From: Sinohyriopsis cumingii
Taxonomy: Eukaryota; Mollusca; Bivalvia; Unionida; Unionidae
Reading direction: 5' to 3'
NCBI GenBank assembly: GCA_028554795.2
Contig: CM068827.1
Coordinates: 135,562,371-135,626,370 of the forward strand
Length of the DNA stretch: 64,000 bases
The position numbers and the translations under genes were made by a program. Below the pieces are notes generated by a model. It saw only the letters and a list, made by a program, of their open reading frames with translations, made no database searches and had not been told where the DNA came from. Below, piece after piece: positions 33,615 to 63,230 of the stretch (the first letter of the stretch is position 1; every line of letters starts with the position of its first letter).

Positions 33615-33911
33615 AGTAGTGAAAGGGGTCACCCTAGCGACAATGGGAATTAGCATTACAGAGACCCCTGGGTCACTCTAGCGACAATGGAAATTTAACA
33701 TGGAGAAAAATCGTGGGTCACTCTGGCGACAAGGGGAATTTAACATGGGAAAAAACCCTGGGTCACTCTAGCGACAAGGGAAATTGAACATGGGATTTTT
33801 TTTTTTTTTAAATTTTTTTAAAAAAAAATTTTTTTTAAAAAAGGGGTAGGCAATTCAAAGACTATCTCTTTTCGAGAAATATGGCTGGCCCTGAAAAGGG
33901 CCTTTGGGTTT
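33615..33911 (+). repeat. Terminal inverted repeat, left, with four iterons
   Basis: Four imperfect ~45-bp direct repeats of the form GGGTCACTCTAGCGACAA, GG(G/A)AATTTAACATGG, then AAAAA(C/T)C. They are followed by an A/T block, GGGGTAGGCAATTCAAAGAC and a histone-like hairpin on the minus strand. The iterons are plausible integrase or replication-initiator sites (inference). Confidence 0.93.
33887..33902 (-). terminator. Histone-like 3' stem-loop
   Basis: Minus strand GGCCCTTTTCAGGGCC, preceded by CCAAA and followed by AGCCATATTTCTC then GAAAAGAGAT. It is 25 nt past the stop of the 77-aa minus gene (33928). Confidence 0.8.
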
Positions 33912-33927
33912 TATGTTAATCTATTCA

Positions 33928-34161
33928 TTAACATAAATGGCACCGCATTGGTCTTCTTCTTGTCCTTAGGCTGCGTCTTACTGTTGGTCCGTACATCAGC
34001 ACTCTTTTTAGGCATCCTTGTCTTTCGACGTAGATCCTACGTATCCACAGGCTGGTGTTTGTCCTGTGGACAACGGTCCACTTCGATCGGACATACATGA
34101 GCAAGTCTGTCCGAAACATCATGGAAGACACAAGGGTGGATGACTCAACTGTGGTCCACAT
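33928..34161 (-). CDS. Small Arg-rich protein with histone-like mRNA end
   Basis: A 77-residue basic protein beginning MWTTVESSTLVSSMMF and ending TVRRSLRTRRRPMRCHLC. Three signals support it over competing frames. A TATAAATAA box lies on the minus strand at 34205-34213, about 45 bp before the ATG. The ATG is the first after the expected start of transcription. The stop lies 25 nt before a histone-like hairpin, the same arrangement as the other small genes. Arg-rich, possibly nucleic-acid binding. No family recognised. A shorter Lys-rich frame at 33911-34015 on the same strand is the main alternative. Confidence 0.5.
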   Translation of the reverse strand: MWTTVESSTLVSSMMFRTDLLMYVRSKWTVVHRTNTSLWIRRIYVERQGCLKRVLMYGPTVRRSLRTRRRPMRCHLC

Positions 34162-34310
34162 CTTGAAGCGACGAGAACAGGTGAATCAATGCAGTCAACG
34201 GCGCTTATTTATAGGTACAGGTAGGATTGAAACGGATTGAGTTCATTCACCAATCCAAACACGCGTTACAAAATTCAGCCAGCCGCATCCAATCCGAAGA
34301 GAGCAGTCTG

Positions 34311-34318
34311 TGACGTCA
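34311..34318 (+). promoter_or_regulatory. CRE-like TGACGTCA before the 34380 gene
   Basis: Perfect palindromic CRE/ATF consensus, 62 bp upstream of the start codon. The same octamer recurs in every ~610-bp satellite unit. A TATA-like box is weak (AATATAG at 34327). Confidence 0.5.
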
Positions 34319-34379
34319 CGTAGTCAATATAGATCTGCTAGCGCTTGTGTGCAGTCAATCTATGCGACAGTCATTCAAC

Positions 34380-34955
34380 ATGACGGAAACTCAGAAAACG
34401 ATCCATTGGGGTGCACCAGCAGGGGAGACTGCCCAAGGGAACTCGGACTTACTTTCAGAAGAGGTGAATTGGGATTTTGTGGATTTTCTCTCCTCGCAAG
34501 AATTTGTTCCGGAACCTTCGTTACCTTCTTCATTACCGCAAGTGGAGAATTTTAGACAGAGACAGAAAGAAGAATTGGAGAAATTTATACAACGACAAAA
34601 GGAAGCGGAACAGGCTTTTCTCCTACAGCAACAGCAACAAGAAGAAGAGGTAAGAAAAAAACAACAGCAAGAAGAAGTAGCAGCAAAGAAACAAGAGGGT
34701 GAAAATCAAACGGTCACGGCACTGTTGGACATTTTAGCGGAGTTAAGAAGTCTGAAACAAATGTATCAGACTTCTTTATCACGACCGAAGAGAATACGAC
34801 CTTCCCGAGCCAAACATGTCAACCCTGTGACTAAGCCTACCGTACCACCCTTAGTGATTTCAACCCAATCATTATCATCATCATCAACATTACGCAGTCC
34901 AGAAGTAGGCCTTGGCCGTGGCAAAGGCATAAGGCAGTTAAAGTTGATTGCTTAA
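34380..34955 (+). CDS. Gln/Glu-rich coiled-coil protein
   Basis: 191 residues. N-terminal ~55 residues are mixed and acidic (EEVNWDFVDFLSSQEF). A long helix of E/K/Q follows (KEELEKFIQRQKEAEQAFLL, then Gln runs), a leucine-rich segment (VTALLDILAELRSLKQMY), and a basic C-terminus (RPKRIRPSRAKH, GRGKGIRQLK). The start chosen is the ATG at 34380; an earlier in-frame ATG at 34362 would add six residues. It ends 26 nt before a histone-like hairpin at 34982. It probably belongs with the coiled-coil genes at 51570-53709 by layout, but it is not clearly homologous. Function unknown. Confidence 0.75.
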   Translation: MTETQKTIHWGAPAGETAQGNSDLLSEEVNWDFVDFLSSQEFVPEPSLPSSLPQVENFRQRQKEELEKFIQRQKEAEQAFLLQQQQQEEEVRKKQQQEEVAAKKQEGENQTVTALLDILAELRSLKQMYQTSLSRPKRIRPSRAKHVNPVTKPTVPPLVISTQSLSSSSTLRSPEVGLGRGKGIRQLKLIA

Positions 34956-34981
34956 ACTCACCCCTTCACCATGAAGAAAAA

Positions 34982-34997
34982 GGCCCTTTTCAGGGCC
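34982..34997 (+). terminator. Histone-like 3' stem-loop with ACCCA and purine element
   Basis: GGCCCTTTTCAGGGCC: six base pairs, loop TTTC, followed by ACCCA as in animal histone mRNAs. The purine-rich GAAAAGAAAT at 35011-35020 sits where a U7-binding element is expected. An AATAAA near 35052 could be a backup poly(A) site. This is the closest match in the window to the histone consensus. Confidence 0.85.
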
Positions 34998-35253
34998 ACC
35001 CACATTTCTCGAAAAGAAATACAATTTCAATTTGCCAATAACTCAAAAAAAAAATAAACCCCACCCATTTTACCCTTATGGTACGTGTCTGTGTATGAGT
35101 GCGTGAGTGTAGCTTCTTATTTTAAAATCACAACTCAAAGACACTTACCTTATATCATTCATTTATTCTTTTCTCCATTTTTTACAATCCAATTCACAAT
35201 TTATAACACAACACTTTAATAAAAAGTTCATTGATTTCTTCTTTTCTCCTTGT

Positions 35254-35724
35254 TTAGTCTCTCTTTTTTTTGAATTTCTTCACCGTCACACTCTTTTCCT
35301 CTTCTTCCTCCTCGCTTTCTTCCCTTCTTCTTTTTTTCTCCTGTTTCTTTTTCTTCACCTGTCTTCTTTCTTCCTCAGAAGAATCCCTCTCTTCCTCTGA
35401 AGAATCCCTCTCTTCTTCTGAAGAATTCCTCTCTTCTTCTGACTCCTCTTGTTTCTTTTTTGGGCAATCTGGAGACCAATGTCCTTTTTCTTTACAATAA
35501 TAACAGGTATCTTGACTTTTGTCTCTTTTATCCCCTGTTTTTTTTCTTTTTTGACGGTCTGGACACTCTGAAGACCAATGCCCTTTCTTCTGACAGATAT
35601 AGCAAGTATCTTGACTTTTATCTCTAAAGGAAGGAGAGTAGTCCGTAGGCTGGTCTGAAGAGAATTTTCTAATGACCCCTCGCAAAGCTCTGACGAAACG
35701 TTCCATCTGGTCAGTCTCTTCCAT
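35254..35724 (-). CDS. Two-knuckle CCHC zinc protein with acidic-basic tail
   Basis: 156 residues. Residues 1-25 form a probable helix (MEETDQMERFVRALRGVIRK). Two CCHC knuckles follow, C41/C44/H49/C54 (CYICQKKGHWSSEC) and C74/C77/H82/C87 (CYYCKEKGHWSPDC). Then come repeats of NSSEEERD/DSSEEERD and a Lys/Arg/Glu C-terminus. CCHC knuckles bind single-stranded nucleic acid; the role here is inferred. A minus-strand TATATAAAAGG box lies at 35778-35789. It is divergent from polB with only 134 bp between start codons. Broken relatives occur in both satellites (8549, 30620). The start at 35724 was chosen because it follows the TATA box and matches the relics. Confidence 0.85.
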   Translation of the reverse strand: MEETDQMERFVRALRGVIRKFSSDQPTDYSPSFRDKSQDTCYICQKKGHWSSECPDRQKRKKTGDKRDKSQDTCYYCKEKGHWSPDCPKKKQEESEEERNSSEEERDSSEEERDSSEEERRQVKKKKQEKKRRREESEEEEEEKSVTVKKFKKKRD

Positions 35725-35858: not shown

Positions 35859-38800
35859 ATGAAACGATCCCATTCATTCGAGAAGAAAGAAGAAAGTAAG
35901 AGGCAGAAACGTGATCTATCGCCTCGTACCAGGGCTGAGATCTTGGCACAAATTCATGCCAGTGATTTTGAAGAGGACATGAGTGAACCAGAATTTGAAA
36001 CCTCTAAACCAAGTTCATCACCCTTTGTCAACCCTGAAAAGTACTATTCCATTCGAGAGACGGAAAAGCGCTCCTCTAGAAAATTTAGAACCACGGCTTA
36101 CAAATACACGGTGAAGTTTAAAGATTTCAAGGCTGAAGTGCCGTTAGAGAAAGCAGAAGTGTTCATCACCGAGGTGTGGGATTCTTTGCTCACTGCACTC
36201 AAGCAGCAATGTCAACCCAAAGAAGACGATCGCTTGAGACTTTCCATACAACACGACGGTTTGAAATCCCCTGTTTGGATCGAGTTTAGCACCCCTGCAG
36301 AATTGACTGCTTCCAAAGTCATGGACAAGATTCAACACGTACAACAATCTAATGATCAGTTTGACATCACCGATGGTAAAGCCACACTGGACATGACCCA
36401 CGTCTCTCCTCCTCAAGGGACAGGACGCAAAAAGATGTTATTGGTGGACGACCTTCGCAACACCAAAACGAGTCTCGTCCGAATTAACAACCCTCATGAC
36501 CAGATGTGTTTAGCCCGTGCCATCGTGGTGGGACGAACCTATGCCAACAAGAACGACACGGTAGAATGGAAAAGAACCTGGAAAACTATTCAACGATCCG
36601 ATCGAGCCAAACAACAAAATGAAGCAGAACTCCTGTTACAACAAGCCGGACTGTCCAAAGACACACCCTGTGGCATTCCTGAGATGCAAAAATTGCAAGA
36701 TGTCCTAGCTCCACGATACACCTTGAAAGTGCACCCTCAAGAAGTGCGCGGACCTCTGTTGTTTCGAGGCCAAGACTTTAAGGACGGAAAATACATTCAC
36801 CTTTATCATCACGATGACCATTTCGATGCCATTACCAGTATCACTGGATTCCTGAGATATGTTTATTATTGTGAGAAATGTGACTATGGTTATAATAATC
36901 GAGAGCAACACAAACATTGTGGATGGAAATGCTCAGGATGTTTGGCCTCTCCACCCTGTCTGAGCGAAGAACCAGTGCCTTGTTCCACTTGTCTGCGCAC
37001 GTTTGTCAGCCCTAAATGTTACCAACAACATTTGAAGACGCAAGGTTCACAGAAGAAATGCGCTTGTCAACTGCTGAGATTGTGCTCTACGTGTGAACAA
37101 GTCATACGTACCAATAATACCAAGGCACACGTATGTTCAGGAAAGAAAAAATGTCACATTTGTCACCACATCGTGGACTTGGAACACCAATGTTACGTGC
37201 AAAAATACCAACCCCCACCAGAGAAAGAGGACGGTCACAAGAAGAAAGGCAATTTCATCTTTTTCGATTTCGAATGCATGCAAGAGACTGGCATTCACAT
37301 CCCTAATTTCTGCGTGGCTCATCGAGCGTGCGAGAAGTGCATTCAAGAACCTATCTTCAGTCATTGCCCTCACTGCAGCAAGATTCCTGGAGGGCGTGAA
37401 AAAATCTTTCGGGGACCAAATACGTTAGCCGATTTTGCCCAATGGGTCTTAGACCCCGTCGACAAGACGTGGAGCCAAGAGGACATCGAACGTTACGGAG
37501 ATTGTCATCGTCATGCCACGGTGATGGCTCACAATTTTTCCGGATACGATGGACAGTTTCTTTTGAGGTACTATACGGAACAAGGCACCGAACGTCCTAA
37601 AGTGACTTTGAACGGGGCCAAAATCATTTTCATGCAAGTGGGACAAGTACAGTTTAAAGATTCGATGAGCTATTTGGCCATGCCTTTGAGTCGAATGCCT
37701 AAAACGTTTGGAATGACAGAAATGGCTAAAGGGTACTTTCCACACTTTTTCAATACGGAAGCCAATCAACATGCCGTTCTACCCCATTTACCTGAGGCTC
37801 ACTATTACGACCCCGACAACATGCGTACCGAACAACGAGAAGCTTTCTACGCTTGGTACCAGGCTCACGCCTCGGACCCTTTCGACTTTCAGGAAGAAAT
37901 GCTAAAGTATTGTCGTTCCGACGTGGACATTTTACGGCGTTGCTGTGGAAAATTTCGAGAACTGTTCATGGAACACGGAGGGGTCGATCCTTTGAAAGAA
38001 GCTTGCACCATTGCCAAAGCGTGTTCCTTAGTGTATCGACAACGATTCATGCCTGAAAACACCGTGGCTGTCATCAGTCCTCAAACGACCCACTTTGTCA
38101 AACGTCAATACTCGGTCAAAGCCCTACGTTGGTTACATTACTTGTGCGACAAGGAAGACAAGTGGATTCAGCATGCTCGCAACGGAGGGGGCGAAAAGAC
38201 CATCGGAACGTATTCGGTCGATGGCTGGGACTTAGAAAACCCCAAGATCGTGTACGAGTTTAACGGTTGCTTATTTCACGGATGTCCCGTCTGTTACCCT
38301 GACCGTGGTACTAAAAATCAGTTTTTGCAACGAACCATGGAAGACTTGTACCAGGACACTTGTCAGCGACGCCTAAAGTTAGAACAGGAAGGATACCAAG
38401 TGGTGGAAATGTGGGAACACGAGTACGATCACCGTATGAAAACCGATCCCGAGTTTAAACGTCTCGTGGAAAGTTACAAGCTGATGGACCCGCTGAACCC
38501 GAGGGATAGTTTGTACGGAGGAAGGACCAATGCCACCTGTTTGCTGTACCAAGCCGACGAAGAGAAAGGAGAAGAAATCAAATACTTGGACGTGTGTTCG
38601 CTGTATCCCTACGTGTGCAAATATTGTCGCTTTCCTGTAGGGCACCCGCAATTGCTGACGGAACACATTGACCTGGTCAACATTCGACAATACGAAGGCT
38701 TGATCAAGTGCAAAGTTTTGCCTCCCACGAACCTATACCATCCCGTCTTACCTCACCATTGTCAAGGCAAACTGATGTTTCCCTTGTGCCGTACTTGTGC

Positions 38801-39905
38801 CGAAACGTGCAACCAAGACCAGCCTTGTCAGCACAGCCAGGAAGAACGGGCCTTGACGGGAACCTGGGTCAGCGTGGAATTGTTCAAAGCTCTGGACATG
38901 GGATACCAACTGTTAGAAGTGTACGAAATTTGCCACTTTCCCAAGACACAACAGTATCGCAAGGGTGACCCCACGCAGAAAGGCATTTTCGCAGACTACG
39001 TGGATGCCTTTTTGAAACTGAAGCAAGAAGCTAGCGGCTATCCTTCCTGGTGTCACACTCCCGAAGACCAAATAAAATTCAAAGAGAAATATTACGAACA
39101 AGAAGGCATCACTTTAGACCACATCGAGAAAAACGAAGGCAGGCGATCGTTTGCCAAAGTGATGTTAAATTGCTTGTGGGGTAAAATGGCACAACGACCG
39201 TGTTTACCCAAGACGGAATATTTGACAGAACCTTCCCGCTACTTCCAGATGATTCACGACAAAACCAAATACATGAAACACGTGGACGTCGTTCGAGAGA
39301 ATTTGATCTTGGTCAATTACGAAGAAGATCTGGACTTTGTACAAGACGATCCTTTTGGAAATGTCATCATTGCGGCTTACGTGACAGCCCATGCTCACTT
39401 AAAATTGTACGAAGCTTTAGAACTGTTAGAAGAACGCGTCCTGTACTTTGACACGGACAGTTGCATCTACATCCATCACCCGATTCAACATCACCCTAGC
39501 ATCGAAGGAGACCGTTTAGGAGCCTGGACAGACGAGCATCCCGACGACAAGATTCTAAGTTTTGTCAGTGGCGGTCCCAAAAATTACGGCTACCAATACC
39601 GGGACAAACAAGGAGAAGTGCACACGACGTGCAAAGTGAAAGGACTGACTCTGAATTATCGTACCAGTCGAGTGGTCAACTTTGGGGTAATGAAAGAAGC
39701 CTTGCAATCGGGAGAGGATGGAAACTTTAAAGTGACCACTCACCAACCGAACAAGATTGTACGTTTACCCACTCATCACATCGTCAGTCGGCCCTTGGAA
39801 AAAGTCTATCAAATCGTGTACCAGAAGCGAGTTCGACTTCCCAATCATTTCACCTTACCGTACGGTCACGTCGGTATTGGTCTGTATATAAAAAAGGAAC
39901 CCTAG
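35859..39905 (+). CDS. polB: Protein-primed type B DNA polymerase
   Basis: 1348 residues, usual for Polinton/adintovirus PolB. A leader of ~330 residues and Cys/His clusters (about 335-450, e.g. CEKCDYG, CSGCLASPPC) precede the catalytic parts. Exonuclease: FFDFEC (~470), HNFSGYDGQF (~558) and YCRSDVDIL (~684). Polymerase: motif A YLDVCSLYP (~909-917), motif B KVMLNCLWGKM (~1100), motif C YFDTDS (~1196-1201), and KVKGLTLNY (~1260). All expected catalytic acids are present. It replicates the linear element genome, probably from a terminal protein at the repeats. The gene is intact; the TATA box is at 35805. Confidence 0.97.
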   Translation: MKRSHSFEKKEESKRQKRDLSPRTRAEILAQIHASDFEEDMSEPEFETSKPSSSPFVNPEKYYSIRETEKRSSRKFRTTAYKYTVKFKDFKAEVPLEKAEVFITEVWDSLLTALKQQCQPKEDDRLRLSIQHDGLKSPVWIEFSTPAELTASKVMDKIQHVQQSNDQFDITDGKATLDMTHVSPPQGTGRKKMLLVDDLRNTKTSLVRINNPHDQMCLARAIVVGRTYANKNDTVEWKRTWKTIQRSDRAKQQNEAELLLQQAGLSKDTPCGIPEMQKLQDVLAPRYTLKVHPQEVRGPLLFRGQDFKDGKYIHLYHHDDHFDAITSITGFLRYVYYCEKCDYGYNNREQHKHCGWKCSGCLASPPCLSEEPVPCSTCLRTFVSPKCYQQHLKTQGSQKKCACQLLRLCSTCEQVIRTNNTKAHVCSGKKKCHICHHIVDLEHQCYVQKYQPPPEKEDGHKKKGNFIFFDFECMQETGIHIPNFCVAHRACEKCIQEPIFSHCPHCSKIPGGREKIFRGPNTLADFAQWVLDPVDKTWSQEDIERYGDCHRHATVMAHNFSGYDGQFLLRYYTEQGTERPKVTLNGAKIIFMQVGQVQFKDSMSYLAMPLSRMPKTFGMTEMAKGYFPHFFNTEANQHAVLPHLPEAHYYDPDNMRTEQREAFYAWYQAHASDPFDFQEEMLKYCRSDVDILRRCCGKFRELFMEHGGVDPLKEACTIAKACSLVYRQRFMPENTVAVISPQTTHFVKRQYSVKALRWLHYLCDKEDKWIQHARNGGGEKTIGTYSVDGWDLENPKIVYEFNGCLFHGCPVCYPDRGTKNQFLQRTMEDLYQDTCQRRLKLEQEGYQVVEMWEHEYDHRMKTDPEFKRLVESYKLMDPLNPRDSLYGGRTNATCLLYQADEEKGEEIKYLDVCSLYPYVCKYCRFPVGHPQLLTEHIDLVNIRQYEGLIKCKVLPPTNLYHPVLPHHCQGKLMFPLCRTCAETCNQDQPCQHSQEERALTGTWVSVELFKALDMGYQLLEVYEICHFPKTQQYRKGDPTQKGIFADYVDAFLKLKQEASGYPSWCHTPEDQIKFKEKYYEQEGITLDHIEKNEGRRSFAKVMLNCLWGKMAQRPCLPKTEYLTEPSRYFQMIHDKTKYMKHVDVVRENLILVNYEEDLDFVQDDPFGNVIIAAYVTAHAHLKLYEALELLEERVLYFDTDSCIYIHHPIQHHPSIEGDRLGAWTDEHPDDKILSFVSGGPKNYGYQYRDKQGEVHTTCKVKGLTLNYRTSRVVNFGVMKEALQSGEDGNFKVTTHQPNKIVRLPTHHIVSRPLEKVYQIVYQKRVRLPNHFTLPYGHVGIGLYIKKEP
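39885..39897 (+). promoter_or_regulatory. TATA box of the BIR gene
   Basis: TATATAAAAAAGG overlaps the last codons of polB, about 60 bp before the ATG at 39951. Confidence 0.6.
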
Positions 39906-39950: not shown

Positions 39951-40688
39951 ATGAATACTTTGAAAAAGACATCGTTCCAGTTTGGGGATTGTAAAAAAGT
40001 TGTATCTTCCTCTAGTGTGACTAATACTGGATGGATAAGACCCATGCATTGCGACGGAAAATGTCCGGAAGGAAACTGCGATTGTCCATGTGGTTACCAT
40101 TGTAATTGCGTAACGGAGTTTGCAGACGAGTGCGATTGTGAGCCTTGCGATGGGACCGATGCTGCACGTTGTGACCTGAGCGATGCCGTAAAGCATCATG
40201 GGAACTTTGTTTTCACTGCCCCTGTCATGGAAAGTGATGCTGTGCGTGTCAAACCTGAGGGATGCGAAAGCGATGCCGCTCGTCCTCTTAGACATTTTAC
40301 CGGGTTTAAAGGGGAATGTTCACCTTCACGTCTACCCCCCTACGGATGTCATCCAGCCCTGAGCAAACTCCTGTTCATGTCACCCAACCCTTATCGAAAC
40401 GAACCTGTGAAAGACGAATATTCGTTTCCTGTGCGTTTGTCGGAATACTGCGACTTTGAAAATCGTCTTCAATCGTTCAAAGGAAAATGGCCAAAGTATC
40501 TGGGAGGACCGACCCCCGAAGAATTAGCCAGAGCCGGATTTTTCTACTTGGGCGAAGGAGATAAAGTCAAGTGCTTCAGTTGCGGTGTGTCACTTCACCA
40601 CTGGGAACCGCAAGATTCGGCCTACGTTGAACATGCTCGATGGTCACCGAATTGTCATTACTTACCTTTAGTGGGACCGAGACATTGA
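39951..40688 (+). CDS. Single-BIR IAP-like protein
   Basis: 245 residues. The C-terminal ~80 residues form a BIR domain: YCDFENRLQSF, LARAGFFYLGEGDKVKCFSC, then VEHARWSPNCHYL, with zinc ligands near C207, C210, H227 and C234. The N-terminal half is unusual: a Cys-rich stretch (CDGKCPEGNCDCPCGYHCNC) and short repeats around SDAV/DAAR. There is no RING domain. BIR proteins of insects and their DNA viruses block caspases or regulate cell division; an anti-apoptotic role is inferred. It has its own TATA box at 39885 and lies between polB and the paralogue cluster. Confidence 0.9.
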   Translation: MNTLKKTSFQFGDCKKVVSSSSVTNTGWIRPMHCDGKCPEGNCDCPCGYHCNCVTEFADECDCEPCDGTDAARCDLSDAVKHHGNFVFTAPVMESDAVRVKPEGCESDAARPLRHFTGFKGECSPSRLPPYGCHPALSKLLFMSPNPYRNEPVKDEYSFPVRLSEYCDFENRLQSFKGKWPKYLGGPTPEELARAGFFYLGEGDKVKCFSCGVSLHHWEPQDSAYVEHARWSPNCHYLPLVGPRH

Positions 40689-40716: not shown

Positions 40717-41172
40717 ATGAATACTTTACAAGAGAACATTCGTGCTTTGCCTGTGGAGTTGAGAGAACGCATTTACCGAGAGCTGGTCAAAATACAAGTG
40801 AAACGTAAAGAACAATTGCATCCGATACGTCACCGGTGTTTGAACCACTGGTACCTGAAGGCTATACAAGGACTGATTCAATTGAAAGTGTTCCATTGGA
40901 CAGACATTGATCAACGACCTCCTGGTTATAAAAAGGAATGGTTTGGTATTGACGATTCTATCTACTACATTGTAAACGTACTGCATCGAATTCCAGAGGA
41001 AGAGTTAACGAATTACCAACATCTTGAACACAATGTCAACTTGGTGAAAGAGGAAACTTCTGAACGAATTGTAATGTGTAGATTAGTGACTCAACGATTT
41101 AAATTCGACACTGAAGTGAAACCATGTTTGTGCAAAGAGTACATTTCTTGTGTCAGACCAAAGAGGATTTAG
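40717..41172 (+). CDS. Tandem paralogue 1, F-box-like N-terminus
   Basis: 151 residues. The first ~38 residues (NIRALPVELRERIYRELVKI) are almost identical in the next two genes and resemble the start of an F-box (LPxEL, hydrophobic spacing). The rest has diverged strongly, though HWYLK and a Lys/Glu-rich helix remain alignable. No known family confirmed. The spacing to the next gene is 12 bp. An F-box role (recruiting SCF ubiquitin ligase) is only a hypothesis. Confidence 0.8.
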   Translation: MNTLQENIRALPVELRERIYRELVKIQVKRKEQLHPIRHRCLNHWYLKAIQGLIQLKVFHWTDIDQRPPGYKKEWFGIDDSIYYIVNVLHRIPEEELTNYQHLEHNVNLVKEETSERIVMCRLVTQRFKFDTEVKPCLCKEYISCVRPKRI

Positions 41173-41184
41173 TATGACCTATTC

Positions 41185-41703
41185 ATGGATACTTTACAAG
41201 AGAACATTCGTGCTTTGCCTGTGGAGTTGAGAGAACGCATTTACCGAGAGCTGGTCAAAATACAAGTGAAACGTAAAGAACAATTGCATCCGATACGTCA
41301 CCAGATCTTTAACCACTGGTACCTGAATGGTATAAGAGAACTGATTCGTCAGAAATTCTTTCAATGGTCAGACATTGTTCAAAACTTTGAGGTCGCTAAT
41401 GATCGACATGTTCATGATTATGGTTACTTCGAGATTCACCTAGTGCAATGCATTGAGGAAGACAAGTTAAAGGATTACAAACATATTTTACGTGGAATCT
41501 ACTTAGAGGAAGAGGAAACACCTAAACGAACTCTGACGTTTCGGTTACAGTATGCAAGATTTAGATTCCCTACTGGAGAACGAAGATCTCTGGCTAGAAA
41601 GTACGTCTATTGCATCCGAAAAAAAGAGAATATAAAAAGAGGCTGCCATGCCACGGTTTATGTCACATGTCATCCAACAGATTCCGTGGAAGGAACTCAA
41701 TGA
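41185..41703 (+). CDS. Tandem paralogue 2, F-box-like N-terminus
   Basis: 172 residues. About the first 115 nt are nearly identical to the 40717 gene, and then it diverges. The C-terminal end (HATVYVTCHPTDSVEGTQ) is read from DNA that in another frame encodes the copied start of the 74-aa gene (41648 onward), showing that the duplication unit ran past the stop of the ancestral gene. Confidence 0.8.
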   Translation: MDTLQENIRALPVELRERIYRELVKIQVKRKEQLHPIRHQIFNHWYLNGIRELIRQKFFQWSDIVQNFEVANDRHVHDYGYFEIHLVQCIEEDKLKDYKHILRGIYLEEEETPKRTLTFRLQYARFRFPTGERRSLARKYVYCIRKKENIKRGCHATVYVTCHPTDSVEGTQ

Positions 41704-41710
41704 CCTATTC

Positions 41711-45936: not shown

Positions 45937-47049
45937 ATGGAAAAAGTCTTAGCTAGCATTTACTACGATCCCTCCCATCCTGCAGGTTACGCAGGAGTTC
46001 AAAAATTGTATCGTGCTGCCAAAACGCGACTGAAAAGTCTCCGTTTACCTCAAGTGCAACGATGGTTACAAGAACAAGCTACCTACACTTTGCACAAACC
46101 CATTCGACGCAAGTTTGCCAGAAGTCGCACCCGAGTGGAAGGTATCGATCATCAATGGCAAGCCGATTTAGCCGATGTCTCTCATTTGGCCAGCTACAAT
46201 CGTGGTTACAAATATTTGTTTTGTGTCATCGACGTCTTTTCCAAATTTGCCTGGGTCGTGCCCTTGACTTCCAAATCCAGCAGCGAGTTAGTGCGAGCCC
46301 TGCAACGGGTGTTGAAACAAAGCGGTCGTCACCCTCTTCGATGGCAAACGGACAAAGGCACCGAATTTCTGAACCAAGCTTTCCAAAAAGAATTAAAGAA
46401 ACGTGACATTCATTTTTTTACCACCGAGAATCCCGAAACCAAAGCCAGCATCGTGGAACGTTTTCAACGCACTTTGAAAGAACGCATGTGGAAATATTTT
46501 ACGCATCACCACACTCTGAAGTACATCGACATCTTACCGCACCTGGTGCAAGCGTACAACCAATCTTACCATCGAAGCATCGGACGTGCCCCGCAAGACG
46601 TGACTCCCGACAACGAAGTGCTGGTGTTCGAGCGCCTGTTTGGTACGTCCCCGACGAGGGCTGTCCCCAAGAAAAGTGGAGAGTTGACCGTAGGAGATTG
46701 GGTGCGCATTGGCAAAACCAAACGCACTTTCGACAAAGGTTACTTACCTAACTGGACGACCGAACTGTTTCGCGTCACTGGACGAGTGCATGGCCGTCAT
46801 CCTGCCGTCTATAAATTGGAAGACATGAACGGAGAAGTGCTCAAAGGAACGTTTTATTTGCCCGAGTTACAACGTGTCACCAAAAAAGAAGACGACGTGT
46901 ACGACATCGAAAGCATTCTCGAACGCAGAACCCGTAAAGTGGGCAAACGACGTGTCAAAGAAGTCAAAGTACGTTGGAAAGGATATCCACCCAGTTTCGA
47001 TTCTTGGATCGACGCTTCGCAAGTCATCGACTATAAAAAGAAGAAGTGA
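45937..47049 (+). CDS. int: Retroviral-type DDE integrase with chromodomain
   Basis: 370 residues. Catalytic core with D77 (WQADLADV), D139 (WQTDKGTEFLNQAF) and E174 (ASIVERFQRTLKE), 35 residues apart as in the DD35E class. An SH3-like part follows (GELTVGDWVRIGKTKRTFDKGYLPNW), then a C-terminal chromodomain near 322-366 (YDIESIL, KVRWKGYPPSFDSWID). It inserts the element, giving 6-bp duplications such as CCCCAT; the chromodomain may steer it to marked chromatin. The ATG at 45937 was chosen because the upstream part of the frame has no ATG. Intact. Confidence 0.96.
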   Translation: MEKVLASIYYDPSHPAGYAGVQKLYRAAKTRLKSLRLPQVQRWLQEQATYTLHKPIRRKFARSRTRVEGIDHQWQADLADVSHLASYNRGYKYLFCVIDVFSKFAWVVPLTSKSSSELVRALQRVLKQSGRHPLRWQTDKGTEFLNQAFQKELKKRDIHFFTTENPETKASIVERFQRTLKERMWKYFTHHHTLKYIDILPHLVQAYNQSYHRSIGRAPQDVTPDNEVLVFERLFGTSPTRAVPKKSGELTVGDWVRIGKTKRTFDKGYLPNWTTELFRVTGRVHGRHPAVYKLEDMNGEVLKGTFYLPELQRVTKKEDDVYDIESILERRTRKVGKRRVKEVKVRWKGYPPSFDSWIDASQVIDYKKKK

Positions 47050-48829: not shown

Positions 48830-50158
48830 ATGATGCACCGAGAGTCTTGCGCTTGTTCCAAGACGGAACTGGATCTGTTTGCCATGCCCCCCACCATGAT
48901 GACCATGCAAGAATCTCAGTGGGTGGAATTTCACCCCGTCTCCTCACTGACCGATTCCGCTCCCATCGAGTTTGAAATCAAAGGACAGCCCGAAGATTAC
49001 ATCGATCTGAATAGCAGTTACTTGTACCTGAAAGTCAAAATTCTAGATAAGACTGGAGGTCCTATAGACGATGAAGCAGTAGCTCCCGTCAACAATTTCA
49101 TGCATTCCTTGTTCAGTGGAGTGGACTTGTACTTGAATAACAAACTGGTCAGTAGCAGCATGGATACTTACCCTTATCGGGCCTACCTGGAAAATCTCTT
49201 GACGTACGGAATAGACGCCAAGAACACTCATCTCAATGCTTGTGTGGTATGGGAAGCTGACGAAGCAAACCAGTTTGAAACATTCGAAACTGATGTAACC
49301 AAAACACCAAACAATGACGGATTTATAGAACGAAGAGACAGAATCAAAGGAGTCAACAAAAGTTTAGAACTGATGGATCGTTTACATTTGGACATGTGGT
49401 TGCAAGAGAAATATTTGCTGAACGGAGTGAATGTTCGCCTGAGACTGAATCGGAGCAGTACCGCTTTCCATTTATTGGCTAATGATGACAATTACAAAAC
49501 CAAAATCCAAGAAGCCAGACTCTACGTGCGACGTGTGGAAGTGCTACCTAAAGTAGGTAACGACATCAGTCAGACGTTGAGCAGAACGAACGCCAAGTAT
49601 CCCATACGACGTGTAGAAGTGAAAACTTTCACCATTCCTAAGGGACAGCGATCCATGATCGAAGATCATCTGTTCCAAGGACAGCTACCCAAGCGTTTAA
49701 TCATTGGTATGGTCTCGAATGAAGCCTTCAACGGAGCTATCGCTAAAAATCCTTTCAACTTTCAACACTTTGACGTGTCCAAGATCGAAGTCAGTCGAGA
49801 TGGCAAGACCTTGTGTACCCGACCTTTCGAACCTAAGTTTAAAGAGAAGAATTACTTGAGGTCGTACTTGTCCCTGTACGAAGCCACCGGACAGTTAGGA
49901 ACCAACACCAGTCACGGCATTACGTACGAGGATTATGCAGGAGGCTACGCTTTGTGGGCTTTCGATTTCACTCCAGACCAAGGCAGCGACGAGGGACATT
50001 TCCACCCTATAAAATCCGGCCAGATTCGTGTGGAAATTCAGTTTGCAATCAAAGACACCGGTGCTGAAGATAATCCAACGTTGAACGTCATCCTGTATGC
50101 AGAATTCGATAATACTATAGAAATCAACAGTTTGAGAGAAGTCATTCTAGATTACTAG
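48830..50158 (+). CDS. Major capsid protein (double jelly-roll)
   Basis: 442 residues. Features of the Polinton major capsid family: SQWVEFHPVSSLTDSAPIEF, NNFMHSLFSGVDLYLNNKLV, YPYRAYLENLLTYG, LHLDMWLQEKYLLNGVNVRL, NPFNFQHFDV and VILYAEFDNTIEINSLREV. The family builds the icosahedral shell as trimers. The ATG at 48830 follows an A-rich tract; a second ATG is next to it. Intact. Confidence 0.95.
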   Translation: MMHRESCACSKTELDLFAMPPTMMTMQESQWVEFHPVSSLTDSAPIEFEIKGQPEDYIDLNSSYLYLKVKILDKTGGPIDDEAVAPVNNFMHSLFSGVDLYLNNKLVSSSMDTYPYRAYLENLLTYGIDAKNTHLNACVVWEADEANQFETFETDVTKTPNNDGFIERRDRIKGVNKSLELMDRLHLDMWLQEKYLLNGVNVRLRLNRSSTAFHLLANDDNYKTKIQEARLYVRRVEVLPKVGNDISQTLSRTNAKYPIRRVEVKTFTIPKGQRSMIEDHLFQGQLPKRLIIGMVSNEAFNGAIAKNPFNFQHFDVSKIEVSRDGKTLCTRPFEPKFKEKNYLRSYLSLYEATGQLGTNTSHGITYEDYAGGYALWAFDFTPDQGSDEGHFHPIKSGQIRVEIQFAIKDTGAEDNPTLNVILYAEFDNTIEINSLREVILDY

Positions 50159-50687: not shown

Positions 50688-51248
50688 ATGGATACCTGGG
50701 AACTTTATTACCTTTTGAACCACAGTTCGTATACGTCTTCTTGGAATCCCGTCGTCTGTGCTAAAGATGAACTCCCTCATCGCAAACCTAAAGACCATCA
50801 AGCTTACGTGATCAACACGGACGACAGTCATCTCCCAGGAACCCACTGGGTAGCCGTCTACTTTCCTCAAGAAGGCTGTGTGGAATATTTCGATTCGTAC
50901 GGATTGCCCCCTTTGGAAGACGATATCATCGACTTTATGAGAAGAAATGCTCAAACCACCCGATTCAATAACGTGAAATTACAAGGCACAGATTCCTTGG
51001 TGTGTGGACAATACTGTGTGTATTTTCTGCATCATCGCAGCCTGGGCTATTCCTTAGAACATTTAGTGACTCATTTCGATCCTCGTTCTTCTGCTAGAAA
51101 CGATGTGAAAGTAGATCGATGGTTTTGTGACCATTATGCTTATCTTTTGTCTCAAGCTAGGAAACGTAGTGTCCATCAATGGCCTAATGATTTCCAACAG
51201 TGGAAATCACAATTTCATTCACAACGTTGTCAGCCTTGCTTAAAGTAG
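50688..51248 (+). CDS. Adenain-type cysteine protease
   Basis: 186 residues. Catalytic pattern of adenovirus/Ulp1-like proteases: H53 (GTHWVAVYF), D69 (EYFDSYGLPP), Q99 (LQGTDS) and C106 (VCGQYCVYFL). It processes virion proteins during maturation. The ATG at 50688 was chosen because upstream in-frame codons have no ATG. An AATAAA lies at 51355. Intact. Confidence 0.95.
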   Translation: MDTWELYYLLNHSSYTSSWNPVVCAKDELPHRKPKDHQAYVINTDDSHLPGTHWVAVYFPQEGCVEYFDSYGLPPLEDDIIDFMRRNAQTTRFNNVKLQGTDSLVCGQYCVYFLHHRSLGYSLEHLVTHFDPRSSARNDVKVDRWFCDHYAYLLSQARKRSVHQWPNDFQQWKSQFHSQRCQPCLK

Positions 51249-51480
51249 ACTGTATTAGAAGAAAAAATGTTTGTGATTTGAAAAAAATTGTTTGATGTTA
51301 TCATGTTGAATTATTGTTAAAAATGTTGTTGTTAAGGGTTAAGTGATTTTTTTGAATAAAAAATGTTGTGTTTAGAAAAAAATGCCTTTGTGGTTTGTTT
51401 AGCTAGAAGAATGTTGGATTGATGCTCTTTCATTTCTTACTATCCCTCTCATGAACGTTGCGGCTCGAAAACCGTGTGGG
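51249..51480. other. Untranslated stretch with AATAAA (51355)
   Basis: T-rich sequence after the protease gene; AATAAA at 51355-51360 is a likely poly(A) signal for the upstream gene. No open frame. Confidence 0.6.
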
Positions 51481-51481
51481 G

Positions 51482-51518
51482 GATGTTTTCCTTCACGTCC
51501 GCGCTTTCACTTTAAGAA
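51482..51518 (+). promoter_or_regulatory. Shared promoter block and TATA-like box (51570 gene)
   Basis: GATGTTTTCCTTCACG (51482-51497), then TCCGCGCTTTCAC and TTTAAGAA (51511-51518), about 52 bp before the ATG at 51570. Confidence 0.65.
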
Positions 51519-51569: not shown

Positions 51570-51938
51570 ATGTGCTCCAAACTAGCTAAGCTCAACGAAG
51601 CCTACGTGAATTTGCATAGGGTCAGACACAGTCTGATACCGAAACCAGAAGAAATAGAGAATGTGAGAATGTTAAAAATCACTGAAGACCTGATAGAAGA
51701 ACTCTTCAGAGAAGAAATGAACAGGGAGAAAGAAGAATGGACAGAGAAGTACAGACTTCAGAGACAGCAGCAACAGCAACAACAACAGCAACAGCAGCAA
51801 CAGCAGCAGCAACCTGAAGCTGACAGAGGCTTTGTCGATTGTCGTATCGACACCAAAGAATTCTTCTTCTCGTTCCGAAGAAGCAGACCTATTGCCAGAA
51901 AGTCTATCCTCAGAGGACATCGCATTCTTAGAAACTAA
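51570..51938 (+). CDS. Coiled-coil protein with Gln run
   Basis: 122 residues. MCSKLAKLNEAYVNLHRV, KPEEIENVRMLKITEDLIEE, a charged helix (REKEEWTEKYRLQ), a run of about 17 Gln, then GFVDCRIDTKEFFFSFRRSR. Intact, unlike the copies at 3943 and 4342. The ATG at 51570 is right for spacing to the TATA-like box. The stop is 24 nt before a histone-like hairpin. Function unknown; a helix-rich scaffold or nucleic-acid-associated role is possible because of the Arg-rich end. Confidence 0.8.
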   Translation: MCSKLAKLNEAYVNLHRVRHSLIPKPEEIENVRMLKITEDLIEELFREEMNREKEEWTEKYRLQRQQQQQQQQQQQQQQQQPEADRGFVDCRIDTKEFFFSFRRSRPIARKSILRGHRILRN

Positions 51939-51962
51939 AAGAATGCCATAGCAAAAAAAAAC

Positions 51963-51978
51963 AGCCCTTTTCAGGGCT
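51963..51978 (+). terminator. Histone-like 3' stem-loop with ACCCA and purine element
   Basis: AGCCCTTTTCAGGGCT then ACCCAATACTCT and AGAAAAGAAA (51991-52000). AATAAA at 52034 may act as backup. Confidence 0.8.
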
Positions 51979-52000
51979 ACCCAATACTCTAGAAAAGAAA

Positions 52001-52320
52001 TAACTATTAATTTGCCAATGTGAGTAGTGTGAAAATAAACACTAACTCTTTCTTAAAAATTTTGAGGGTATGTGTTGGTGTGTTTGTGTTTGTAAGTGAT
52101 AAAGTAGGTTGGTGTGGATAGTAGATTAAAATGATGTTAGTTTTTTGGGCTGTTTGAGGTGTATATTTGGGGTTAGATTGGATTGCTTTGCGTATGTGGA
52201 TAGTCTATTGAAGTGATGGGTAGCATAAAAAAGTGAGCGAGTGTTTCTTTTAGGTCGGCGCGTTGTTGTTGTTGTTGTTGTTTTAGGTCATGATCTAGGT
52301 AAGATCAATTTTATGTTATT
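52001..52320. other. GT-rich spacer between coiled-coil genes
   Basis: No open frame. Similar spacers follow the 52413 gene (52950-53160) and, inverted, lie at 63000-63200 and 63760-64000, so gene plus spacer was multiplied together. It holds the second motif at 52232-52256. Confidence 0.6.
52232..52256 (+). promoter_or_regulatory. Second shared motif (GAGTGTTTCTTTTAGGTC)
   Basis: AGTGAGCGAGTGTTTC followed by TTTTAGGTC and a CGCG-like tail; also at 4921-4944 (+), 3694-3717 (-), 54897-54921 (-) and 63726-63750 (-). At 4921 it lies 34 bp before the start codon of the orphan gene. Confidence 0.5.
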
Positions 52321-52324
52321 AGGG

Positions 52325-52360
52325 GATGTTTTCCTTCACGTTCGCGCTTTCACTATAAAT
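52325..52360 (+). promoter_or_regulatory. Shared promoter block and TATA box (52413 gene)
   Basis: GATGTTTTCCTTCACG (52325-52340), TTCGCGCTTTCAC, then TATAAAT (52354-52360), 53 bp before the ATG. Confidence 0.7.
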
Positions 52361-52412
52361 TGAAACTCGCTGGGCAGTCTAGCTACCCTTGTTGATTGAT
52401 CAACAGTAAAAA

Positions 52413-52886: not shown

Positions 52887-52912
52887 CCAGGTGCCTCTGA
52901 AGTTCCAAAAAC

Positions 52913-52928
52913 AGTCCTTTTCAGGGCT
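52913..52928 (+). terminator. Histone-like 3' stem-loop (one G-U pair)
   Basis: AGTCCTTTTCAGGGCT, followed by ACCCCAATACTCT and AGAAAAGAAA (52942-52951). The T-G wobble keeps all six pairs in RNA. Confidence 0.75.
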
Positions 52929-53166
52929 ACCCCAATACTCTAGAAAAGAAATAACAATCCATTTGCCAATGTGTGTAGGTAGAGTAGTGTAATTAAAAAA
53001 ACTAAATCTTTTTGAAAAAATGTGAGGGTATGTGTTTGTGTGATTGTGTGTTTGTGTTTGTGTTTGTAAGAGCTCAGGTATGTTTGTGTGAATAGTAGAT
53101 TATGGGTTTTTTAGTGTATGTGAAGAGTATAGTTTGGGTTGTATTATATGAAATGAGAAAAGTGGG

Positions 53167-53270
53167 GATGTTTTCCTTCACGTACGCACGTTGTTGGGTT
53201 ATGATCTAGATAAGATCAATTTAATGTTTTTAGGGGATGTTTTCCATCACGTACGCGCTTTTCGTATAAG
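53167..53270 (+). promoter_or_regulatory. Two shared promoter blocks and TATA-like box (53320 gene)
   Basis: GATGTTTTCCTTCACG (53167-53182) and GATGTTTTCCATCACG (53236-53251), with GATCTAGATAAGATCA between them, then TATAAG (53265-53270), 50 bp before the ATG. The homologous gene at 62844 also has two blocks. Confidence 0.65.
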
Positions 53271-53319
53271 AACCCACAGTATTCGTGGTTCAAACCATTC
53301 TGCAAAGAATACAAAGAAG

Positions 53320-53709: not shown

Positions 53710-53728
53710 AAGCAGAAGAAGAAGACAA

Positions 53729-54022
53729 CCCAAAGGCCCTTTTCAGGGCCAGCCATATTTCTCGAAAAGAGATAGTCTTTGAATTGCCTACCCCTTTTTT
53801 AAAAAAAATTTTTTTTTAAAAAAATTTAAAAAAAAAAAAAATCCCATGTTCAATTTCCCTTGTCGCTAGAGTGACCCAGGGTTTTTTCCCATGTTAAATT
53901 CCCCTTGTCGCCAGAGTGACCCACGATTTTTCTCCATGTTAAATTTCCATTGTCGCTAGAGTGACCCAGGGGTCTCTGTAATGCTAATTCCCATTGTCGC
54001 TAGGGTGACCCCTTTCACTACT
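53729..54022 (-). repeat. Terminal inverted repeat, right, with four iterons
   Basis: Reverse complement of 33615-33911 with few differences. Begins inside the 3' hairpin of the last coiled-coil gene, so the hairpin and purine element are part of the terminal repeat. Confidence 0.93.
53735..53750 (+). terminator. Histone-like 3' stem-loop
   Basis: GGCCCTTTTCAGGGCC preceded by CCAAA, followed by AGCCATATTTCTC and GAAAAGAGAT (53764-53773). Confidence 0.8.
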
Positions 54023-59051: not shown

Positions 59052-59070
59052 AAGAAGAAGAAAACCCAAA

Positions 59071-59086
59071 GGCCCTTTTCAGGGCC
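59071..59086 (+). terminator. Histone-like 3' stem-loop
   Basis: GGCCCTTTTCAGGGCC, then AGCCATATTTCTC and GAAAAGAGAT. Kept intact although the gene in front is truncated. Confidence 0.75.
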
Positions 59087-59356
59087 AGCCATATTTCTCG
59101 AAAAGAGATAGTCTTTGAATTGCCTACCCCTTTTTTTAAAAAAATTTTTTTAAAAAAAAATTTAAAAAAAAAAAAATCCCATGTTAAATTTCCCTTGTCG
59201 CTAGAGTGACCCAGGGTTTTTTCCCATGTTAATTCCCCTTGTCGCTAGAGTGACCCACGATTTTTCTCCATGTTAAATTTCCATTGTCGCTAGAGTGACC
59301 CAGGGGTCTCTGTAATGCTAATTCCCATTGTCGCTAGGGTGACCCCTTTCACTACT

Positions 59357-59362
59357 GAAGAC
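59357..59362 (+). repeat. Target site duplication GAAGAC (right)
   Basis: Immediately follows the right tip ending CACTACT; identical to 26184-26189. Confidence 0.9.
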
Positions 59363-61793: not shown

Positions 61794-61796
<3 letters not shown>

Positions 61797-61853
<57 letters not shown>

Positions 61854-62169
61854 GACTTTGTATAGTGCCTAGTCTTTAGAAGTGCTAAGCGCTTTACAAC
61901 ATTAGACAACACCTATAAGATAGAAAAACATATAATGTTATGATTACAAAACCAAACACCATGAAATTAGAAAACATTAAAAAACATGCTGAGAATATTT
62001 AAGGTAGGAAACATTATTAGGTCTTTCAGTTTGTTCTTGCAGTCGAAATAAGTGAGATTTGAGAGTCCTCTTGAATGTGATCACTGTGTCTTTGTGTCTA
62101 AGTTCAGTGGGCAATTCATTCCACGTTGCTGGGCCCTGGTATGCAAAAGAACTCTGTCCATATGACTTT
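61797..62169 (-). mobile_element. LINE 3' end (L2/CR1-like), interrupted by third element
   Basis: (AAT)n at 61797-61850, then GAGGACTTTGTATAGTGCC, and on the minus strand the ORF end YGQSSFAYQGPATWNELPTE and FKRTLKSHLFRLQEQ. Same family as 13330-15240. The third element begins at 62170 within its coding part: 62100-62169 aligns with reverse-complemented ~14867-14935. Confidence 0.85.
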
Positions 62170-62450
62170 AGTAGTGAAGTGGGATACCCTACGGACAATG
62201 GAAATTCCAGTCAAAACACCCCTGGGACACTCTACGGACAATGGAAATTTAACATGGCGAAAAATCGTGGGACAATCTACGGACAAGGGGAATTTAACAT
62301 GGGAATAAATCGTGGGACAATCTACGGACAAGGGGAATTTAACATGGGATTTTTTTTTAAAAATTTTAAAAAAAATTTTTTAAAAAAGGGGTAGGCAATT
62401 CAAAGACTATCTCTTTTCGAGAAATATGGCTGGCCCTGAAAAGGGCCTTT
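62170..62450 (+). repeat. Variant terminal inverted repeat (CTACGGACAA core)
   Basis: Four ~45-bp units of the form GGGACAATCTACGGACAA, GGGGAATTTAACATGGG, AATAAATCGT. The A/T block, GGGGTAGGCAATTCAAAGAC and hairpin follow exactly as in 33615-33911, so only the iteron cores differ. Confidence 0.8.
62432..62447 (-). terminator. Histone-like 3' stem-loop
   Basis: Minus strand GGCCCTTTTCAGGGCC with AGCCATATTTCTC and GAAAAGAGAT after it; 16 nt past the stop of the 62464 gene. Confidence 0.75.
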
Positions 62451-62463
62451 GGGTTTTCTTCTT

Positions 62464-62844
62464 CTAATTTCTTCTTTTCCTCCACCAAGTTCTTATTTTA
62501 TCTCCTACACTCTTCTTCTCTTTCTTTTTTTTCTTCTCCTCTTCTTTCTTCTCTTCCTCCTCTTCTTTCTTCTTCTTTTCATTTTCTTCTTCTTTTTCAA
62601 TTTTTTCGTTCCAATTGCGTATTCTTATTCTTTCCTCTTCATCCTCCTTCTCCTCCTTGATCTCTTTCATGACACCACTAATTTTGTCCTTTGCTTTCCT
62701 TAAGTTATTAATTTCCATCTTCACACGATGGGGACTATAGGAATAATGGTCTTCAACCAGTCTTAATAGCATCTGTTCCATTATTCCTAAGTTGTCTAAA
62801 ACGTCTTGCAAGGTTTGTAATTTGTCCATTTGGTTTGACGCCAT
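62464..62844 (-). CDS. Coiled-coil protein, WWRK tail (third element)
   Basis: 126 residues, about 85-90% identical by eye to the 53320 protein: MASNQMDKLQTLQDVLDNLG, EDHYSYSPHRVKMEINNLRK, an E/K helix, VGDKIRTWWRKRRN. Substitutions are mostly conservative, and the frame is intact despite many small length changes in the helix, which suggests a functional gene. TATA-like box at 62894-62900; promoter blocks at 62913 and 62982. Confidence 0.82.
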   Translation of the reverse strand: MASNQMDKLQTLQDVLDNLGIMEQMLLRLVEDHYSYSPHRVKMEINNLRKAKDKISGVMKEIKEEKEDEEERIRIRNWNEKIEKEEENEKKKKEEEEEKKEEEKKKKKEKKSVGDKIRTWWRKRRN

Positions 62845-62893
62845 CTTCTTTGTATTCTTTGCAGAATGGTTTGAACAACTAATACTGTGGGTT

Positions 62894-62997
62894 CTTATAC
62901 GAAAAGCGCGAACGTGAAGGAAAACATCCCCCTAAAACATAAAATGGATCTTACCTAGATGATGACCAAACATCGCGCGGACGTGAAGGAAAACATC
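62894..62997 (-). promoter_or_regulatory. Two shared promoter blocks and TATA-like box (62844 gene)
   Basis: On the minus strand GATGTTTTCCTTCACG at 62982-62997 and 62913-62928, then GTATAAG at 62894-62900. Confidence 0.65.
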
Positions 62998-63214
62998 CCC
63001 CTACTTTCTCATTTCATATAATATAACCCTAACTATACTCTCCACATTTGCTAAAAAACCCATAATCTACTATTCACACTAACATACCTGAGCTCTTACA
63101 AACACACAAACACATACACTTCCACTATTAATAAAGAGTTAGTGTTTATTTTCACACTACTCTACCTACTCACATTGGCAAATTAATAGTTATTTCTTTT
63201 CTAGACTATTGGGT

Positions 63215-63230
63215 AGCCCTGAAAAGGGCT
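63215..63230 (-). terminator. Histone-like 3' stem-loop with ACCCA and purine element
   Basis: Minus strand AGCCCTTTTCAGGGCT, then ACCCAATAGTCT and AGAAAAGAAA; 28 nt past the stop of the 63259 gene. Confidence 0.8.

Follow-up and report, generated by a model that had tools for sequence, protein, structure and literature searches.

Histone-type mRNA 3' ends predicted behind the outer genes of a Polinton in the bivalve Sinohyriopsis cumingii

The window analysed here is a stretch of 64,000 nucleotides (nt) of the genome of the bivalve Sinohyriopsis cumingii (assembly GCA_028554795.2, contig CM068827.1, positions 135,562,371 to 135,626,370 of the forward strand), and a single Polinton family is represented in it by three or more copies, which are nested and in part decayed. 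The youngest copy (33615-54022) is apparently complete, with terminal inverted repeats (TIRs), a target duplication and genes for a family B DNA polymerase (PolB), an integrase, an ATPase and a capsid protein. It is housed in an older, decayed outer Polinton (26190-59356) with its own 6-bp duplication, GAAGAC, at 26184-26189 and 59357-59362, and a third copy runs in on the minus strand from the right edge of the window. Short open reading frames (ORFs) towards both ends of the complete copy are followed on their coding strand by a hairpin resembling the 3' end of animal replication-dependent histone mRNAs, the structure described by the Rfam family RF00032 (Histone3, histone 3' untranslated region stem-loop; gathering score 34 bits). 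The ends of the complete copy, its outer ORFs and the hairpin regions of all copies are as follows.

26435..26480, minus strand: stem-loop in which one pair is broken, within the left TIR of the outer Polinton; RF00032 26.3 bits, below the gathering score
33609..33614, no strand: 6-bp target-site duplication CCCCAT, left, in flanking sequence
33615..33910, plus strand: left TIR of the complete copy, 296/296 identical to inverted 53727-54022; contains GACAATGG motifs and a minus-strand hairpin
33862..33907, minus strand: mirror image of 53730-53775 in the left TIR, following the 77-aa ORF; RF00032 35.6 bits
33928..34161, minus strand: tentative 77-aa ORF toward the left end, stop 25 nt ahead of the hairpin in the left TIR; TATAAA upstream; no Pfam family
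34362..34955, plus strand: g34362, 197-aa ORF, hairpin behind
34977..35021, plus strand: histone-type 3' end of g34362; stem-loop 34982-34997 followed by ACCCA, with the purine element GAAAAGAAA 13 nt past the stem; RF00032 41.2 bits, E 9.6e-9
51570..51938, plus strand: g51570, 122-aa ORF, hairpin behind
51958..52003, plus strand: histone-type 3' end of g51570; stem-loop 51963-51978; exact pattern; RF00032 31.0 bits, below the gathering score
52413..52886, plus strand: g52413, 157-aa ORF, hairpin behind
52908..52952, plus strand: histone-type 3' end of g52413; stem-loop 52913-52928 with one U-G pair; exact pattern; RF00032 21.9 bits, below the gathering score
53320..53709, plus strand: g53320, 129-aa Lys/Glu-rich ORF, hairpin behind
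53727..54022, minus strand: right TIR of the complete copy, 296/296 identical to the left TIR
53730..53775, plus strand: histone-type 3' end of g53320, in the right TIR; stem-loop 53735-53750; RF00032 35.6 bits
54023..54028, no strand: 6-bp target-site duplication CCCCAT, right, in flanking sequence
59066..59111, plus strand: hairpin within the right TIR of the decayed Polinton that lies outermost; RF00032 35.6 bits
62407..62452, minus strand: histone-type 3' end of the diverged third copy of g53320 (ORF 62464-62844); RF00032 35.6 bits
63190..63235, minus strand: histone-type 3' end of the diverged third copy of g52413 (ORF 63259-63567 from ATG); RF00032 31.5 bits, below the gathering score

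A preliminary description of the window, made from its letters alone, had listed eight hairpins (33887-, 34982+, 51963+, 52913+, 53735+, 59071+, 62432- and 63215-), all of which are present; the pattern RGYCCTTTTCAGGGCY has 8 matches in the window and none in any of 100 dinucleotide-preserving shuffles. The mismatched or decayed sites that it had added were also found: 26460- has one broken pair, and at 3899-, 4724+ and 55105- an A run has taken the place of the 5' arm, while purine element and 3' arm are still there. A 19-base hairpin pattern was matched once by chance in viral_contigs, which might suggest that such hairpins arise by accident. Eight matches in 64 kb against none in the shuffles, combined with a fixed position and a purine element, refute such an origin, and its probability is practically negligible.

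Five sites in the window reach the gathering score of RF00032, one with 41.2 bits (E 9.6e-9) and four with 35.6 bits each, and four more sites appear up to an E value of 1 (31.5, 31.0, 26.3 and 21.9 bits). Seven of the eight stems are wholly Watson-Crick, the stem at 52913 containing one U-G pair (AGTCCT/AGGGCT), and RNA folding gave the 6-bp stem with a 4-nt loop in all five sequences tried, with z scores from -2.2 to -3.4. An alignment of the eight window copies with one copy from outside the window, from which the mismatched 26460- was left out, shows four invariant stem pairs, one pair that is C-G or U-G and one that is G-C or A-U, with no broken pair in its nine rows. The terminal pair is G-C in 6/9 rows and A-U in 3/9, the single U-G lying elsewhere. 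The stem is followed by ACCCA, ACCCC or AGCCA and then, at 12-14 nt, by a purine run. The 5' flank is of the CCAAA type in the TIR-linked copies and the 3' flank of the ACCCA type in the other copies. In the window the purine element, GAAAAGA(A/G)A, lies 13 nt past the stem, as had been proposed, and 14 nt past it in g52413, where an extra C is present. The purine-rich element of histone mRNAs lies some 10-17 nt past the stem. The assignment to the animal histone class made in the preliminary description is thus borne out by stem, loop, flanks, purine element, spacing and stop distance, and by the RF00032 matches at the five sites.

Each of the five outer ORFs of the complete copy is uninterrupted and has a hairpin on its coding strand that begins at base 25-27 counted from the stop codon. 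The earlier statement that the hairpins stand behind small genes on the coding strand holds. None of the 18 other ORFs tabulated in this copy has a hairpin within 200 nt of its stop. The distribution (5/5 vs 0/18) gives a Fisher p of 3e-5, with the grouping set after the data had been seen and the 23 ORFs being our own selection from the ORF lists. A place just past stop codons would also fit hairpins that act as transcription ends read by virus-coded machinery instead of by the histone pathway, comparable to the mimivirus-type 'hairpin rule' transcript ends, which are variable in sequence. However, loop, flanks and purine element agree with the histone model, and all 18 inner ORFs tabulated are without a hairpin, so that we consider such machinery quite improbable. 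That the complete copy has two of its five hairpins in the TIRs, near their inner edge, raises another thought, namely that the palindrome serves a DNA function of the element ends, such as replication start, packaging or integrase binding. Since the other three are interior, strand-specific and tied to stops, and since the conserved block takes in the one-sided purine element, this appears very improbable.

The eight hairpins do not represent eight independent cases, as a plain list of them might suggest. The pair 33887- and 53735+ stems from opposite ends of a single perfect TIR, 59071+ and 26460- both lie within the TIRs of the older outer element, and 62432- and 63215- go with the third copies of two genes (g53320 and g52413). 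Separate gene ends in the complete copy are those of g34362, g51570, g52413 and g53320, together with the tentative 77-aa ORF, which would use the left TIR copy and has no other support. Among the remaining genes, g51570 is very likely real, given nine relatives in public data with 74-83% identity to its residues 1-66. No histone fold or linker histone was found among the products of the five outer ORFs (Pfam, E <= 0.1). Sub-threshold Pfam matches of these ORFs to TAF4, SPT2_N and others were rejected as probably an effect of Lys/Glu composition. Upstream of the three right-hand genes the block GGGGATGTTTTCC(T/A)TCACGT occurs at the following positions.

51479..51498, plus strand: promoter block ahead of g51570, with TTTAAG behind the block
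52322..52341, plus strand: promoter block ahead of g52413, with TATAAA behind the block
53164..53183, plus strand: promoter block, first of the pair that precedes g53320; without a visible TATA box behind the block
53233..53252, plus strand: second promoter block ahead of g53320, with TATAAG behind the block

TATAAA or TATAAG stands upstream of three of the five outer ORFs. The products of g51570, g52413 and g53320 show a weak N-terminal likeness, which together with the common promoter block fits duplicated cassettes, and their 3' ends may have been duplicated along with them. At the opposite end of the element, g34362 carries the hairpin signal in surroundings unlike those of the right-hand genes.

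Comparison of the complete copy with the third copy indicates how well the 3' ends are kept. Between the two versions of g53320 the coding sequence (CDS) agrees at 332/379 positions, with a dS of 1.17 (about 59% of silent sites differing) and a dN of 0.065. The block from hairpin to purine element is identical (46/46), as are the following 30 bases (30/30), against 141/156 in the promoter and 151/182 in the subterminal repeats (Fisher p of 2e-4, 0.003 and 1e-5 for the hairpin region versus CDS, promoter and subterminal repeats). In g52413 the block is kept at 42/44 positions, compared with 235/307 in the CDS (p 0.003) and 54/69 in the nearest non-coding sequence (p 0.014). These numbers suggest that the hairpin-to-purine block is likely to be under selection. 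They fall short of proof, since good preservation extends to other non-coding stretches and the copies may have exchanged sequence, and the argument from preservation is therefore of moderate weight. Over the compared regions as a whole (52322-53120 and 53164-53805 versus 62320-63700 on the minus strand), the g52413 and g53320 copies have pS values of 0.86 and 0.59, and their promoters and most 3' flanks are about 80-93% identical. Diverged silent sites beside kept flanks perhaps point to an exchange of flanks between elements.

A capsid alignment scan of prokaryote genome contigs identified five animal-type Polinton pieces in metagenome-assembled genomes (MAGs), here L001 to L005, which are probably host contamination. 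The source records name tubeworm and mussel symbionts, a Breoghania and a Bacteroidia. L004, from a 'bacterial' MAG, encodes a capsid protein 31% identical to that of the window and differs in gene order, its PolB and protease genes being convergent. No TIR of L004 itself was seen. Near its low end lies an 89-aa ORF with C2H2 zinc fingers, and from the 29th base past the stop of this ORF the sequence reads GGCCCTTATCAGGGCC-ACCCCA, which scores 35.8 bits with RF00032, over the gathering score. An A-rich purine run, AAAAAAGAGA, follows 12 nt past the stem, with an AATAAA farther on. Outward of the hairpin there are seven copies of GACAATGG, the same 8-mer as in the TIR of the window, and none occurs in the other four loci. 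In the window GACAATGG occurs at 17 places, 10 of them in the TIRs of the three copies (two in each TIR of the complete copy) and 7 elsewhere. A hairpin of this type behind a stop codon is thus also present in this distant Polinton; L001, L002, L003 and L005 have no Histone3 match up to an E value of 1, and a looser hairpin pattern found in these four only two weak matches, both in L002 and without the flanks.

The four loci differ in how far they reach. Measured from the protease match, L001 continues for 0.8 kb, L005 for 1.0 kb and L003 for 5.2 kb, and L002 extends 10 kb beyond the major capsid protein (MCP). In their outer stretches L001, L002 and L003 have tandem repeats that differ in sequence from GACAATGG and might mark the ends of the elements, and the histone-type signal may be truly missing in some Polintons. 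L003 and L005 also contain pieces that are PolB-like by eye, for which tblastn reported no match. In IMG/VR no relatives were found by the MCP alone, the MCP alignment or the g51570 family. The PolB alignment found 10 loci there (24-28% identity), which have no Rfam match at the gathering score and no convincing hairpin. Three pattern searches of viral_contigs gave nothing but the one chance match of the 19-base pattern, which was rejected since it falls within a 784-aa ORF, by eye a phage tape-measure gene, on a contig of 61 kb.

Taken together, the outer accessory genes of this Polinton would carry working 3'-end signals of the animal replication-dependent histone type, a reading to which we give a probability of roughly three in four. 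Host stem-loop-binding protein (SLBP) would bind the stem-loop, and the purine element some 13 nt farther on would be the pairing site of the U7 small nuclear ribonucleoprotein (snRNP), with cleavage of the transcript a few bases past the stem. The products would be short intronless mRNAs with a stem-loop at the end where other mRNAs have a poly(A) tail, and their stability and translation would be largely confined to S phase. Ordinary poly(A) ends would serve the replication and capsid genes, probably in common, as the close packing of the inner ORFs leads us to infer. If SLBP and U7 are used in this way, histone genes of the host with GGCCCTTTTCAGGGCC-type ends are expected, as is a host U7 RNA whose 5' end pairs with GAAAAGA(A/G)A.

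Several observations weigh against this interpretation. AATAAA lies 71 nt past the hairpin start in g34362 and g51570, and ATTAAA 79 nt past it in g52413; g53320 and the left 77-aa minus-strand ORF lack a poly(A) signal in the 200 nt that follow them. None is expected behind a histone-type end. Because these signals follow three of the five hairpins, poly(A) ends may also be made at g34362, g51570 and g52413, and in the proposed mechanism they would serve as a poly(A) fallback. Among the 18 inner ORFs, only the protease and a zinc-knuckle ORF have a poly(A) signal within 200 nt. A single TIR-linked sequence accounts for four of the five sites that exceed the gathering score (33862, 53730, 59066 and 62407), and the TIR-linked copies have AGCCA after the stem in place of ACC(C)A. 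The covariation comes from one pair, and two of five measures were not above shuffles (387/500 and 500/500). In the g52413 pair the block does not differ from the promoter (83/89, p 1.0), and further non-coding stretches are well kept, namely the promoters (141/156 and 83/89) and a farther 3' flank (76/82). Finally, only one of the five outside loci carries the signal.

Some of these points would equally suit histone 3' ends that were captured from the host long ago and are now passive baggage of duplicated cassettes and TIRs, with transcripts really ending at AATAAA. The three right-hand genes with their common promoter and 3' blocks look like duplicated cassettes, AATAAA or ATTAAA follows three genes, and other non-coding flanks are likewise well kept between copies. 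However, the block is near-unchanged in copies with strongly diverged silent sites, and its 5' stem arm has been lost in decayed copies of g51570. Moreover, g34362 at the other end carries the signal in different surroundings, and in the distant L004 it stands behind an unrelated ORF. We therefore consider mere baggage unlikely and retain histone-type processing as the preferred explanation. Beyond this element, it is possible, though less likely than not, that animal Polintons and adintoviruses have relied on such processing repeatedly and since early times, as a strategy in which outer genes of a presumably regulatory kind would make tail-less, S-phase-tied 'viral histone-like transcripts' and the replication and capsid module would depend on ordinary poly(A) ends.

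The remaining genes support the assignment of the complete copy to the Polintons or Mavericks of the adintovirus type, in line with its gene set, TIRs and 6-bp duplication and with the family named in the preliminary description. All of the following are without a hairpin.

35859..39905, plus strand: PolB (DNA_pol_B_2), of the protein-primed type, Pfam PF03175 144 bits
43028..43771, plus strand: A32-like packaging ATPase, Pfam Pox_A32 PF04665 31.8 bits against a cut-off of 22.8
45937..47049, plus strand: rve integrase with C-terminal chromodomain, PF00665 rve 53.7 bits and PF00385 Chromo 32.1 bits, both over the cut-off
48830..50158, plus strand: MCP, double jelly-roll, 1557 homologues at E <= 0.001, structure model
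50688..51248, plus strand: adenovirus-type protease candidate, weak Pfam Peptidase_C5 match, E 0.0084, 16.3 bits, below the cut-off of 21.3

Residues 560-1340 of PolB have 1772 homologues, and the named animals among the best 120 are mostly marine invertebrates. Among the best 120 of the 1557 MCP homologues, those with an animal name are bivalves. The MCP sequence has no match in the PDB; its structure model (pLDDT 80.8) matches best the mavirus MCP 6g44 (E 9e-16, TM 0.53/0.47), followed by further double-jelly-roll capsids, and against viral models a bracovirus protein stands on top with many capsid proteins lower. The ORF 50688-51248 is probably an adenovirus-type protease, and homologous ORFs lie behind the MCP in four of the five outside loci (L001, L003, L004 and L005). 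Its AATAAA is 107 nt past the stop. The complete copy also encodes a protein with a BIR (inhibitor-of-apoptosis) domain by Pfam at 39951-40688 and, at 40717-42235, a gene in three tandem copies whose products have M(N/D)TLQENIRALPVELRERIYRELVKIQVKRKEQLHP in common near the start. A zinc-knuckle (CCHC) ORF with acidic repeats lies on the minus strand at 35254-35724, between g34362 and PolB, with an ordinary AATAAA behind it.

Elsewhere in the window, the outer Polinton (26190-59356) has inverted repeats that span about 4.1 kb and contain (CA)n-bearing units of about 610-640 nt. An inverted duplication of 4261 bp occupies 1-8637 (1-4261 versus 4377-8637, with a gap of 115 nt, given as 100% complementary) and carries decayed g51570 copies head-to-head. 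It is either an assembly fold-back or an end-to-end Polinton product.

Histone-type ends of Polintons are undescribed in the literature searched, with one uncommented count in related viruses. Full-text searches, mostly at the level of listings, found no description of them in Polintons, Mavericks or adintoviruses, and at the same level nothing was found on viral use of the histone stem-loop/SLBP pathway. The searchable text of one adintovirus paper (PMC11071296) has no stem-loop, hairpin or polyadenylation wording and contains 'histone' twice, and a word search of the available text of another (PMC11071308) found no such wording. In a survey of bivalve transposons (PMC10294476), Mavericks are mentioned and 'histone' and 'stem-loop' are absent. 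The statement in the preliminary description that this route is undescribed in Polintons and adintoviruses stands to that extent, with the reservation that an excerpt of a study of polinton-like viruses (PLVs) already counts six Rfam 'histone 3'UTR stem-loop' matches in 8300 PLV genomes scanned (PMC12220804).

The stem-loop/U7 pathway is, to our knowledge, almost exclusive to the histone genes of animals and some relatives, and we know of no gene class outside histones, in a virus or a transposon, that is built on SLBP/U7 processing. If true, the present interpretation would show how mobile DNA viruses time their expression to host DNA replication or evade poly(A)-dependent control. Poly(A)-selected transcriptomes could then miss these outer genes, which tail-less mRNAs would explain. 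A hairpin past a stop codon and beside a TIR also offers a search handle for the outer genes of endogenous Polintons.

The PLV matches belong to the same Rfam family and come from a wider virus group; in the excerpt seen they are a bare count, with none in cryptophyte PLVs and with gene position and meaning undiscussed (PMC12220804). A Histone3 prediction in SARS-CoV-2, which according to the part of the report available lies in a coding region, names the same family, but its 14.7 bits are far below the gathering score of 34, and we take it as noise (PMC7786107). The closest likeness is to the replication-dependent histone mRNA 3' end itself (RF00032; SLBP/U7 snRNP), with which the Polinton ends share the 6-bp stem, the 4-nt loop, the flanks, the purine element about 13 nt on and a place just past the stop of short uninterrupted ORFs. 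Passages on histone mRNAs of a clam (PMC6210712) and of Hydractinia (PMC5011920) likewise describe a stem-loop close to the stop, in the latter together with a purine element. Unlike histone genes, the Polinton genes are non-histone by Pfam, stand in a virus-like element and have poly(A) signals behind three of five, and their histone-type processing is a prediction from DNA. With Polintons, Mavericks and adintoviruses the element shares PolB, an rve integrase with chromodomain, an A32-type ATPase, a probable protease, a double-jelly-roll MCP, TIRs and a 6-bp target-site duplication; it differs from them in the histone-type ends of its outer genes.

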